Shown one piece after another: positions 25,812 through 58,461 of a stretch of 64,000 nucleotides of DNA. The DNA comes from Microbacterium hatanonis (GTDB lineage: Bacteria; Actinomycetota; Actinomycetes; Actinomycetales; Microbacteriaceae): positions 1,984,001 through 2,048,000 of the forward strand of contig NZ_VRSV01000001.1 of NCBI RefSeq assembly GCF_008017415.1, given 5' to 3'. A program made the translations under genes and the position numbers. The notes below the pieces were generated by a model. It did not search any database. It was given only the letters and a program-made list of their open reading frames with translations, and was not told the origin of the DNA. The first letter of the stretch is position 1, and each line of letters starts with the position of its first letter.

Positions 25812-25877
25812 CGCGGGCCCGCACCGCGCAGCATCCGATGTTGACAGCCCGGCCCGCCTCAGCCGCTCGACCCGAAT

Positions 25878-25943
25878 CGGTGAAATCGGCCGGAGTCGGT
25901 GCGCGTCGACGTGAACACGCACCGAATCGGGCCGATTTCACCG
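25878..25943. repeat. Long palindrome P1, upstream boundary of DUF559 cassette 1
   Basis: Arms of 26 nt at 25878-25903 and 25918-25943 pair with 24 of 26 matches around a 14-nt loop that itself contains the palindrome CGTCGACG. The same element, with 2 mismatches in its right arm, recurs at 26915-26982 on the other side of the DUF559 gene. It lies in the 5' gap between birA and the DUF559 gene. Confidence 0.9.
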
Positions 25944-26051: not shown

Positions 26052-26897
26052 ATGGGTTCGAGCACGAGATCTCTGCGGCACCTCGTCGTCGCGCGCGGTT
26101 ACGTCCATCTGGCGGAGGTCCGCGAGGCCGGGTGGCGACCCGACGCCATCCGCGCGGCCGTCACGAGGGAAGGGCTGGTGCGAGCGGGCCGCGACTGGGT
26201 GCTGCTTCCCAGCGCACCCCCGGAACTGCTGCTCGCCGCCCGAACCGGCTGCGCGGTCACCTGCGTCTCGGCGGCATCGCTGCGCACGCTCTGGCGCGCC
26301 GACGACGACCGCGCCGTCCATCTGGCGGTGCCCAGAGGAGCGCGCAGCTCGCCGGCCGGCGCACACGGACATTGGGGCGCCGGCGTCGTTCCGCGGCCCC
26401 GGCGTCTTCTCGTCGACGCGGTCGAGAACATGCTCGCCGCCGTGGCGACCTGTCGTCCTCACGAACAAGCCCTCGCGATCTGGGAATCGGCGGCGCGCGC
26501 CCGCCTCATCACCGTCGAGGGCATCGGGGCGATCGACTGGCGCGGCGAGCGGGCTCGCGCCCTCCGCGACGAGACCACCGCTCTGTCGCACTCGGGCCTC
26601 GAGACCTTCTTCGTCTCGCGGATGCGGCGGCGAGGCGTCGAGGTTCGACAGCAGGTCAAGATCGACGGCCATCACGTCGACGGCCTCATCGGCGCCCGGC
26701 TCATCGTGCAGATCGACGGCTTCGCCCACCACTCCGATCCGCGACAACGTCGATCCGACATCGCCCACGACCGCCGGCTGCGGTTGCTCGGATACACCGT
26801 GCTGCGTTTCGATTACCGCGAGATCGTCGACGATTGGACCCGGGTGGAGGCCACCGTCCTGGCCGCCATGGCGCAGAATCTTCACCTCGCGCGATGA
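26052..26897 (+). CDS. DUF559-type nuclease-like protein with AbiEi-like N-terminus
   Basis: 281 aa. Residues 1-95 look like the winged-helix AbiEi-type domain (RHLVVARGYVHLAEVREAG, then VREGLVRAGRDWVLL-like strand). The C-terminal part is a Vsr/PD-(D/E)xK fold: HSGLETFF (Glu about 184), HHVDGLIGARLIVQIDGFAHH (Asp about 210, then Q-x-D at about 222), and RRLRLLGYTVLRFDYREIV. Gln stands where most family members have Glu, so catalytic activity is uncertain. No Shine-Dalgarno site is obvious at the ATG. The gene is bracketed by palindromes P1 and P2 and is the only gene between birA and accD. A similar protein is encoded at 50.3 kb. Confidence 0.78.
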   Translation: MGSSTRSLRHLVVARGYVHLAEVREAGWRPDAIRAAVTREGLVRAGRDWVLLPSAPPELLLAARTGCAVTCVSAASLRTLWRADDDRAVHLAVPRGARSSPAGAHGHWGAGVVPRPRRLLVDAVENMLAAVATCRPHEQALAIWESAARARLITVEGIGAIDWRGERARALRDETTALSHSGLETFFVSRMRRRGVEVRQQVKIDGHHVDGLIGARLIVQIDGFAHHSDPRQRRSDIAHDRRLRLLGYTVLRFDYREIVDDWTRVEATVLAAMAQNLHLAR

Positions 26898-40491: not shown

Positions 40492-40586
40492 CGGGTCGGG
40501 GCGCACATCTCCGGGTTCGGGGCGCGGATTTCGGGTCGGGGCGGGGAATCCCGCGCCCCGATGCGAGTTCTGCGCCCCGAACGGGG
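40492..40586. repeat. Inverted repeat element A, left boundary of the GNAT cassette
   Basis: Built from three 20-bp units in one orientation (core CGGGTTCGGGGCGC) followed by two in the opposite orientation. The reverse complement aligns along its length with element B at 41559-41653, so A and B are long inverted repeats flanking 40587-41558. Confidence 0.85.
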
Positions 40587-49398: not shown

Positions 49399-50187
49399 GT
49401 GACCGATCCGCTCGACGCGACGCCGGCCGGGGATGCTCCCCCGCGCCGGCGTCGCCGGTTCCGCGCGCTGCGCTGGACCCTCGGCATCATCGGCGGCCTC
49501 GTCGTCGCGCTGATCATCGGCGTCCTCGTCTGGAGCCAGGTCGGCGTCATGGGCGCCGAGGCCGGTCCGCTCGACGCGGTCAGGAGCGATCCCGCGATCT
49601 CGGTCGCCGACGACGGCGCGGGCATCGTGCTCGCCCCGGCCGACGGCGGCAGCGACGTCGGGCTCGTCTTCATTCCCGGCGCGAAGGTCGACCCGTGGGC
49701 GTACGCGGCGAAGCTCTCGCGCCTGGTCGCCGACGACGGCGTGACGGTCGTCATCACGCGGCCGTGGCTGAATCTCGCCTTCTTCGACCCGCGCCCGCTC
49801 GACACGTTCACCTCGCTCGCGCCCGACGTCGAGGCGTGGGCGGTCGGTGGGCACTCGCTCGGAGGCGTCCGGGCGTGCCAGCTCGCCCCCGACGCCGACG
49901 CGCTCGTGCTGTTCGCGTCGTACTGCGCGAACGACCTCACCGGATCCGGTCTTCCCGTACTGAGCCTCGCGGGCTCCGACGACGGCCTGTCGACGCCGCA
50001 GAAGATCGCCGACGCGAAAGGCGAGCTGCCCGCCGGCGCGGAATTCGTCGAGATCGCCGGCGCCTCGCACGCATCCTTCGGCGACTACGGCCCGCAGGCC
50101 GGCGACGGCACCCCGACGATCTCGGACGCCGACATGACCGCGGCTCTGACCGACGCGATCGCCCCGTTCCTCGCCGCGCTCCCCTGA
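49399..50187 (+). CDS. Membrane-anchored alpha/beta hydrolase
   Basis: 262 aa. An Arg-rich cytoplasmic start (PPRRRRRFRALRW) and one membrane helix (TLGIIGGLVVALIIGVLVWSQ) put the catalytic domain outside. VGLVFIPGAKVDPWAYAAKLSRLVADDGVTVVI and AVGGHSLGGVRACQLA (nucleophile Ser in GHSLGG, near residue 155) fit the AB hydrolase 5 type. FASYCANDL and SLAGSDDGLSTPQK follow, and GASHASFGDYG supplies the His. GTG start 2 nt after mtlD; a link to mannitol use is not evident. Substrate unknown. Confidence 0.82.
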   Translation: MTDPLDATPAGDAPPRRRRRFRALRWTLGIIGGLVVALIIGVLVWSQVGVMGAEAGPLDAVRSDPAISVADDGAGIVLAPADGGSDVGLVFIPGAKVDPWAYAAKLSRLVADDGVTVVITRPWLNLAFFDPRPLDTFTSLAPDVEAWAVGGHSLGGVRACQLAPDADALVLFASYCANDLTGSGLPVLSLAGSDDGLSTPQKIADAKGELPAGAEFVEIAGASHASFGDYGPQAGDGTPTISDADMTAALTDAIAPFLAALP

Positions 50188-50208: not shown

Positions 50209-50259
50209 TGTCCCGATCCCGCCGGGAAAGAGTGCTTCGTTCCCGGCGGGATCGGGACA
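50209..50259. repeat. Perfect palindrome H1, 3' boundary of DUF559 cassette 2
   Basis: TGTCCCGATCCCGCCGGGAA at 50209-50228 pairs perfectly over 20 bp with 50240-50259 around an 11-nt loop. It ends 1 nt before the stop codon of the minus-strand DUF559 gene, so it is positioned to terminate that transcript and also that of the hydrolase on the plus strand. Confidence 0.95.
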
Positions 50260-51177
50260 TCAACCCCGCGACGGCGACCACCCGGCGCGCAGCAACGCCT
50301 CCCGCACGAGGAAGACAGCCGGTTTGCCGCCATCGCGCAGGTGGTGCCGCAGCACTCGCACCACATCCCAACCCGCGCGGCGTATGGCCGGCCAGCGATC
50401 GGAGTCTCGTTCGAACTGCCGGACGTCGAAGGCATGCTGCCGGCCGTCGTACTCCGTCCCGACGCGCCACCGCGGATAGGCCAGATCGAGCCGCGCCACG
50501 AACCGGCCGCTCGTGTCCCGCAGCACCCAGTTGAGCTCGGGCTCCGGCAGACCGGCTCGCGCCAGCACCAGGCGCAGCCGGGACTTCTCGGACGACTCCG
50601 AACCCGCACGGATGGCATCGAGCGCGGCGCGCAACCGCTCCGCGCCCACCCCGCCCATCGCCGCTGCCTCGCAGCGCAGCTCCTCGAGCGTGGCGCAGCG
50701 GCCGCGCCCGACGAGATAGTCACCCGCCGCCACGAGATCGTCGAGGCTCCATGATGCGCCGGCCTGCCGCCAGGCCCTGGCGGGCGACTCGACGGGGAGT
50801 CCCCCGATGAGATGCACCGCCGCATCCCGGTGCTGGAGCCGGTGGCCGATCACCCCCTTCACCCGCGGCTCGCGCTGCGGACGGTGGGCGCTGACGTGCA
50901 CCTCACTACCGGAGCGGCCCGAGGGCATCGGCGCACCCCAGAGGGCGAGGGCCGTGCCGTGGCTGAAGAACTGCCAGGGCGCGATCCGTGCGGCGAACTG
51001 CTGACACTGCCGAAGAAGTCCGTACGAGCCAGCGTCCTTATGGTCGCGCACGCCCGGAAAGGGGATGGTGAGATCGCGGGCGTCGAGCCGTCCGGCGCGC
51101 ACGCCGGCCCGCTGGGCGTCATGGATGGAGAACGGTCCTGCACGAAGTTCGGCGGGCAGATCGGCGGGAGGGCGCAT
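50260..51177 (-). CDS. DUF559-type nuclease-like protein
   Basis: 305 aa. The N-terminus FSIHDAQRAGVRAGRLDARDL resembles the AbiEi-type winged helix of such proteins. The C-terminal domain has the Vsr/PD-(D/E)xK set: SSEKSRLRLVLARAG (Glu), FVARLDLAYPRWRVGTEYDGR (Asp, then E-Y-D) and RRAGWDVVRVLRHHL. Unlike the 26-kb protein it keeps Glu in the third motif. It shares layout rather than close identity with that protein. It is bracketed by palindromes H1 and H2 and has no functional neighbour (hydrolase on one side, adenosine deaminase on the other). Confidence 0.77.
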   Translation of the reverse strand: MRPPADLPAELRAGPFSIHDAQRAGVRAGRLDARDLTIPFPGVRDHKDAGSYGLLRQCQQFAARIAPWQFFSHGTALALWGAPMPSGRSGSEVHVSAHRPQREPRVKGVIGHRLQHRDAAVHLIGGLPVESPARAWRQAGASWSLDDLVAAGDYLVGRGRCATLEELRCEAAAMGGVGAERLRAALDAIRAGSESSEKSRLRLVLARAGLPEPELNWVLRDTSGRFVARLDLAYPRWRVGTEYDGRQHAFDVRQFERDSDRWPAIRRAGWDVVRVLRHHLRDGGKPAVFLVREALLRAGWSPSRG

Positions 51178-51269
51178 CGCCCGATCCTGGCCGCCACATC
51201 ACCGTCCGCGACTCCGTCGGCACTCTTCTGTCCAGAACCCCCGCCGCCCGTCCCCCTGTGGAGGACGAG

Positions 51270-51326
51270 CGATGTCCCCATCCCGCCGGGAAAAGAGCCC
51301 GCATTCCTGGCCGGATGGGGACATCG
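51270..51326. repeat. Palindrome H2, 5' boundary of DUF559 cassette 2
   Basis: Arms of 23 nt pair with 2 mismatches around an 11-nt loop. Its left arm (TGTCCCCATCCCGCCGGGAA) differs from that of H1 at one position. It lies about 95 nt upstream of the DUF559 start and just beyond the 3' end of the adenosine deaminase gene. Confidence 0.93.
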
Positions 51327-58421: not shown

Positions 58422-58461
58422 ACGACCACGGCCAGCCGGATCACCGGCTGGCCGTGGTCGT
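58422..58461 (-). terminator. Strong hairpin after the bmp gene
   Basis: ACGACCACGGCCAGCCGG (58422-58439) pairs perfectly with 58444-58461 over 18 bp around the 4-nt loop ATCA. It starts 8 nt after the bmp stop and separates the abundant binding protein from the membrane components. No T tract follows, so it acts as an intrinsic terminator or an mRNA 3'-end stabiliser. Confidence 0.75.

Follow-up and report, generated by a model that had tools for sequence, protein, structure and literature searches.

The segment from position 50209 to 51326 of the window, i.e., of the whole 64,000-nucleotide stretch of Microbacterium hatanonis DNA analysed here, is probably a REPtron-like unit, in which a single-copy gene for a predicted nuclease is accompanied by two cognate flanking palindromes and by solitary palindrome copies dispersed elsewhere. 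This arrangement, which occurs in Microbacterium and related soil bacteria, looks like an undescribed counterpart, of separate evolutionary origin, to the REP/RAYT "selfish palindrome" systems known elsewhere among bacteria. The DNA displays a recurring anatomy with a matched flanking pair, co-variation of palindromes and protein, and dispersed copies of fixed length whose arms covary; it also displays gain and loss of solitary copies and of whole cassettes, and a conserved active site. The features of the locus and its neighbours are as follows.

49399 to 50187, plus strand: alpha/beta-hydrolase (abhydrolase) gene, neighbour of the insertion site, convergent with the cassette gene
50209 to 51326, no strand assigned: the cassette as a whole (1118 bp), made up of palindrome, gene and palindrome, with abhydrolase on one side and adenosine deaminase on the other
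50209 to 50259, no strand assigned: H1, palindrome 3' of the gene, with perfect 20-bp arms and an 11-nt centre, touching the stop codon
50260 to 51177, minus strand: gene for the 305-aa protein, with an AbiEi-like N-terminal region (residues 10-185) and a Vsr-like PD-(D/E)XK (DUF559/MTES_1575) domain (residues ~195-298)
50434 to 50586, minus strand: predicted nuclease active site from the homologue alignment, E198, D231, E242-Y243-D244 and H248
50623 to 51150, minus strand: AbiEi-like (type IV antitoxin, DNA-binding) N-terminal region, from PADLOC AbiEi models
51270 to 51326, no strand assigned: H2, palindrome 5' of the gene, with 23-bp arms and 2 mismatches, 92 bp from the start codon
51349 to 52464, minus strand: adenosine deaminase gene, neighbour of the insertion site, flanking the cassette

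The arms of H1 (50209-50228 and 50240-50259) form the exact 20-bp inverted repeat that a preliminary description of this DNA had reported, and inward extension brings them to 23 bp at 96%. The same description had H1 ending 1 nt from the stop codon; H1 abuts that codon (50260-50262, minus strand) directly. It had portrayed H2 as the same hairpin with one change in the left arm and a stem longer by 3 nt. The 23-bp arms of H2 (51270-51292 and 51304-51326, 91% complementary) and the one-base difference in the left arm bear this out, but the right arm carries three changes in addition; in that arm a G-C to C-G change at stem position 7 compensates the change on the left. When 60-nt stretches of H1 and H2 are compared as direct repeats they are 75% identical. 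The 64-kb window contains 4 occurrences of the 20-nt arm, where chance would give 0.03. Relative to shuffled sequence, the DNA folding of H1 has a z of -11.0 and that of H2 a z of -5.6. Elsewhere in the window, a perfect hairpin with an 18-bp stem and a loop of 4 nt stands alone at 58422-58461 and is possibly a terminator.

The group to which the C-terminal domain of the 305-aa protein is assigned, DUF559/REase_MTES_1575, was earlier described as a Vsr-type REase (PMC3710099). Taken alone, the window protein gives sub-threshold Pfam matches (MTES_1575, E=0.004; DUF559, E=0.12); across the family, MTES_1575 (PF18741) is matched by all 35 of 35 members, at best with 3.6e-8, and DUF559 (PF04480) by 28 of the 35. 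Ten residues, S195, R202, D231, E242, Y243, G245, H248, Q254, D258 and R261, are invariant in 35 homologues, of which at least 90% also keep E198. The third motif is indeed the E-Y-D that had been noted, E242-Y243-D244, the first two of its residues being invariant in the family. Compared between this genome (G000) and Microbacterium sp. Gd 4-13 (G050), the nearest of the genomes in the set, the gene has a dN/dS of ~0.08 and is thus under purifying selection; with its catalytic residues conserved, the protein could, at the level of sequence, be the active nuclease that was first suspected. Synonymous divergence of the cassette gene between the same two genomes is 0.11, about half of the 0.20 of adenosine deaminase, hinting that species have recently exchanged the cassette. 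The top PDB sequence match is 3hrl, an endonuclease-like protein (E=6e-5). In an AlphaFold model of modest confidence built from six sequences (pLDDT 64) the order of elements fits the alpha-beta-beta-beta-alpha-beta nuclease fold. With this model Foldseek returned nothing significant; a plausible match of the predicted C-terminal domain was to the Vsr-like homing endonuclease I-Bth0305I (3r3p), at a probability of 0.77, a TM by target of 0.68 and an E of 1.1. The N-terminus is matched by PADLOC AbiEi models (E=1.7e-6), as are 22 of the 35 family members, and the protein family has no match to PF01797, the HUH/Y1 transposase domain.

A homologue of the 305-aa gene is present in 134 of 198 related genomes searched; Microbacterium testaceum has one (L092). 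Many of the homologues have flanking palindromes ~50-65 bp long, with 5' and 3' copies that are alike within a locus and differ from those of other lineages (e.g., TGTCCCACTTGTGCACG, GAGTGTCCAAGACACGCCG, TTCATAGCGCGCAGATGG and TGTGGGCGTGAGTTTGG). They usually lie 0-10 bp past the stop codon and ~90-135 bp ahead of the start. Over 86 homologous loci in the Micrococcales, the first 250 bp beside the gene contain palindromes at 23 times the density of the zone from 250 to 1400 bp. A palindrome stands on each side in 35 of these 86 loci, and in 31 of the 35 the 5' and 3' members are at least 76% identical, mismatched pairs averaging 61%. The suspicion that both hairpins go with the gene, and are not independent terminators, is upheld at the level of sequence by matching palindromes around homologues in many species. 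Pairs of other sequence were also seen in a different genus of the family and in further families of the order, and no matched pair was seen at homologues belonging to other classes of the phylum. About half of the examined loci lack a clear palindrome on one side or both, which counts against the REPtron-like reading. Divergence of the protein is correlated in Mantel tests with that of the 3' palindrome (r=0.55) and of the 5' palindrome (r=0.52), and divergence of the two palindromes with one another (r=0.61), with p=0.0005 in all three cases. In ~10 Microbacterium species the homologue is still found beside adenosine deaminase, with palindromes of other sequence where these were read, and the flanking pair therefore changes in concert at a fixed locus.

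The same layout had been proposed for a second DUF559 gene of the window, at 26 kb, and it does recur there with palindromes of its own.

25872 to 25943, no strand assigned: 5' palindrome of the second cassette, which belongs to a different DUF559 subfamily
26052 to 26897, plus strand: the DUF559 gene itself, coding for 281 aa
26910 to 26982, no strand assigned: 3' palindrome of the second cassette, beginning 13 bp past the stop codon

These two palindromes are 72% identical to each other and differ in sequence from H1 and H2. The 26-kb protein is a clear Pfam DUF559 match, and BLASTP finds no significant similarity between it and the 305-aa protein, in keeping with the earlier view that the two are only remotely alike. 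Several other DUF559 paralogues of this genome have no flanking palindromes, a further point against the REPtron-like reading, and the association with palindromes is not universal across the DUF559 superfamily. A further palindrome family of 70-71 bp, GGTTYGGGGCGC...GCGCCCCRAACC, is represented in the window at 40514-40583 and is common to other Microbacterium (L052 813-882, L255 2215-2285 and L257 1394-1464).

Palindromes of these kinds also occur as solitary copies. One set in this genome belongs to a paralogue of the 305-aa gene at C1:155339-156220, which is 49% identical to it and is bracketed by a different palindrome, with the consensus TGAGAGTCCAnrACACCCGG-N18-CCGGGTGTynTGGACTCTCA. This palindrome has 24 copies in the genome, with near-identical arms in unrelated flanks and a core of 50 nt in 23 copies and 49 in one; the reversed-pattern control has no occurrence in the genome. 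Of its 19 arm pairs 12 are invariant, and the variable pairs covary, 94.7% being paired, with 18 double changes as compared to 7.1 +/- 2.1 in shuffles. The H type is represented in this genome by the 2 flanking palindromes and 4 related solitary copies, plus one TGTCCCACTT-type copy. The exact palindrome TGTCCCACTT...AAGTGGGACA, in the form TGTCCCACTTN(28-33)AAGTGGGACA, was found in 28 of 119 Microbacterium genomes, at 1-36 copies each, and in 0 of 79 non-Microbacterium genomes, the reversed-pattern control also giving 0. Exact palindromes are concentrated where a close homologue of the gene is present (25 of 44 such genomes, versus 3 of the 75 others; p=7e-11); the hairpins are thus not distributed without relation to DUF559 genes, though solitary copies do exist. 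The flanking palindrome of the same genome is the best match for a solitary copy in just 8 of 20 cases, since neighbouring species share types; this, too, counts against the REPtron-like reading. Some copies form regular, BIME-like arrays with 74-bp and 63-bp spacing. At the end of one palindrome array, in another genome (G008, L243 1732-1857), there is a 21-bp tandem repeat of half-palindromes (ACCGGAACTGGGACATGCCCC). A search of Rfam yielded nothing meaningful, the only matches being two weak ones of plant miRNAs to a repeat array.

Comparison with the sister species Gd 4-13 provides a view of how these copies come and go. Orthologous flanks could be located there for all 28 hairpin sites tested (24 of the paralogue type and 4 of the H type). 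Many of the sites are common to both genomes, with compensatory changes in the arms despite diverged intergenic flanks. All 4 solitary H-type copies are nevertheless absent from the orthologous sites, as are at least 3 copies of the paralogue type, and H-type palindromes in the sister genome are confined to the surroundings of the gene. Loop sequences vary widely from copy to copy and many solitary sites are common to the sister species; for these reasons any spread of the palindromes is slow. For the solitary copies, no target-site duplication or precise insertion boundary was definable at the compared sites. Whole cassettes vary as well. In a Microbacterium genome without the cassette (G025), abhydrolase and adenosine deaminase stand next to each other, with 3 bp between their stop codons. 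In yet another (G051), this junction is occupied by a DUF559 cassette of a different kind, whose palindromes are of the CTGCACAACTCCTCAA type (L272 350-1493), suggesting that the junction is a favoured insertion site. A decayed DUF559 cassette, with internal deletions and one palindrome lost, is found elsewhere in the present genome (C1:1780000-1784000, L244) and is intact in Gd 4-13 (L212).

The main alternative to a REPtron-like unit, although a rather unlikely one, is that the protein is an autoregulator of the AbiEi type with a regulon. The palindromes would then be duplex binding sites, the flanking copies serving autoregulation and the dispersed ones acting elsewhere in gene control or defence, with nothing being mobilised. 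The match of the N-terminus to AbiEi models is what such a regulator would have, and AbiEi proteins are reported to autoregulate by binding inverted repeats (PMC7319586). The fixed spacing of half-sites and the invariant arm bases would suit a dimer on duplex DNA, and many palindrome sites are conserved between the sister species. Autoregulation, however, has no need of a palindrome at the 3' end of the gene. Most of the solitary copies are placed downstream of genes (11 in convergent, 11 in tandem and 1 in divergent settings) and not at divergent promoters, and the tandem arrays and the gain and loss of copies between sister species also speak against a regulon. There is, moreover, no AbiEii-type nucleotidyltransferase toxin gene directly beside the 305-aa gene, whose neighbours are the abhydrolase and adenosine deaminase genes instead. 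Two independent half-sites would not require the covariation of the arms, which points rather to a paired hairpin as what is recognised, or repaired; the constant length of the centre favours a fixed geometry.

We hold it quite doubtful that the cassette moves in its entirety, as a small insertion sequence with palindromic ends, and that the solitary palindromes are its relics or MITE-like derivatives. The clean presence or absence of the 1.1-kb cassette between adjacent genes, the different DUF559 cassette found at the same site in G051 and the decayed cassette in this genome are what a moving element would leave behind. Each gene type, however, is single-copy in this genome and outnumbered by solitary palindromes, the gene stays beside adenosine deaminase in those ~10 Microbacterium species while its palindromes change, and no terminal duplication was seen at the compared sites. 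It is most improbable that the palindromes are ordinary factor-independent terminators resembling one another by chance, a role that stable hairpins lying mainly 3' of genes would suit and that may be a side function of theirs, but one that as a full explanation is rejected on account of the fixed length and sequence-specific arms, conserved genome-wide, and of the matching of two palindromes around a single gene, one of them ahead of its start, the turnover of copies between species also standing against it.

In the REPtron-like reading, which is the most parsimonious one, the protein would recognise its own palindrome, as a hairpin or cruciform or as a symmetric duplex site, the AbiEi-like region and/or the hairpin form providing the means of recognition. 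The nuclease would then cut or nick at the recognised palindrome, and repair of the break would copy or convert palindromes to new sites; the same repair would keep the two flanking copies alike. PD-(D/E)XK enzymes hydrolyse DNA without a covalent tyrosine link, and for this reason spread is expected to proceed through break repair or homing-type conversion, not through single-strand transposition in the style suggested for RAYTs. We consider it an evenly balanced question whether the Actinobacteria have evolved a second kind of REP-like system that owes nothing to HUH transposases. Its enzyme would be a Vsr-like nuclease carrying an AbiEi-type DNA-binding region, and would maintain and spread its cognate palindromes by cutting them and drawing on host repair. 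If this is true, many "hypothetical" DUF559 proteins of the Micrococcales, including both of those in the window, would be enzymes of such systems. A non-homologous nuclease in a REPtron-type arrangement would mean that this life-style arose more than once; it would also point to spread by break repair and give a function to part of the large uncharacterised DUF559 family.

To our knowledge, HUH/Y1 transposases are the only dedicated enzymes described for REPs. A conventional RAYT is ruled out as the mobiliser here, as PF01797 (HUH/Y1) has no match in 10 Microbacterium genomes, control genomes being positive. Among the short repeats of bacteria, REP palindromes form a common class, and their mode of spread is still unresolved (PMC8266576). 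Our literature survey, in which preprints and most subscription journals were outside the scope, found no report tying DUF559 or MTES_1575 domains to flanking or dispersed palindromes, and nothing linking these domains or AbiEi-like nucleases to REP-like palindromes. The system would accordingly be new by its enzyme and its chemistry; the organisational analogy with REP and RAYT appears close, and the function is one that we propose from sequence.

Among known systems, the REPtron (REP plus RAYT/TnpA-REP; PMC2817692, PMC8266576) resembles the present one in having a single-copy gene between two related palindromes, in the co-evolution of gene and palindrome at a fixed genomic position with palindromicity kept, and in dispersed intergenic copies that are partly arrayed and whose distribution is linked to the gene. 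The REPtron enzyme, however, is an HUH/Y1 transposase, in contrast to the Vsr-like PD-(D/E)XK nuclease with an AbiEi-like region found here, and REPtron copies number in the hundreds, compared to tens here. By inspection, none of the arm families that were read contains a GTAG tag, the arms starting with TGTCCC or TGAGAGTCC. The system is set apart from REPtrons because these defining features, the enzyme family and the tag, fail (PMC2817692, PMC8266576). The TIRYT/TIRtron (PMC3733652) likewise has long inverted repeats that flank a gene and also form small dispersed families, but its enzyme is an HUH tyrosine transposase. The AbiEi antitoxin of type IV toxin-antitoxin systems (PMC7319586, PMC3985639) shares the N-terminal similarity and binds inverted repeats; here, by contrast, there is a fusion to a nuclease, no adjacent AbiEii toxin, and repeats that stand on both sides of the gene and are dispersed as well. 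The nuclease domain itself belongs to the DUF559/REase_MTES_1575 family (PF04480, PF18741; PMC3710099). I-Bth0305I, a Vsr-like (EDxHD) homing endonuclease (3r3p), is a site-specific nuclease to which the C-terminal domain bears a predicted likeness in fold (a weak match, E 1.1); the present gene has no intron or intein, but is accompanied instead by flanking and dispersed palindromes.
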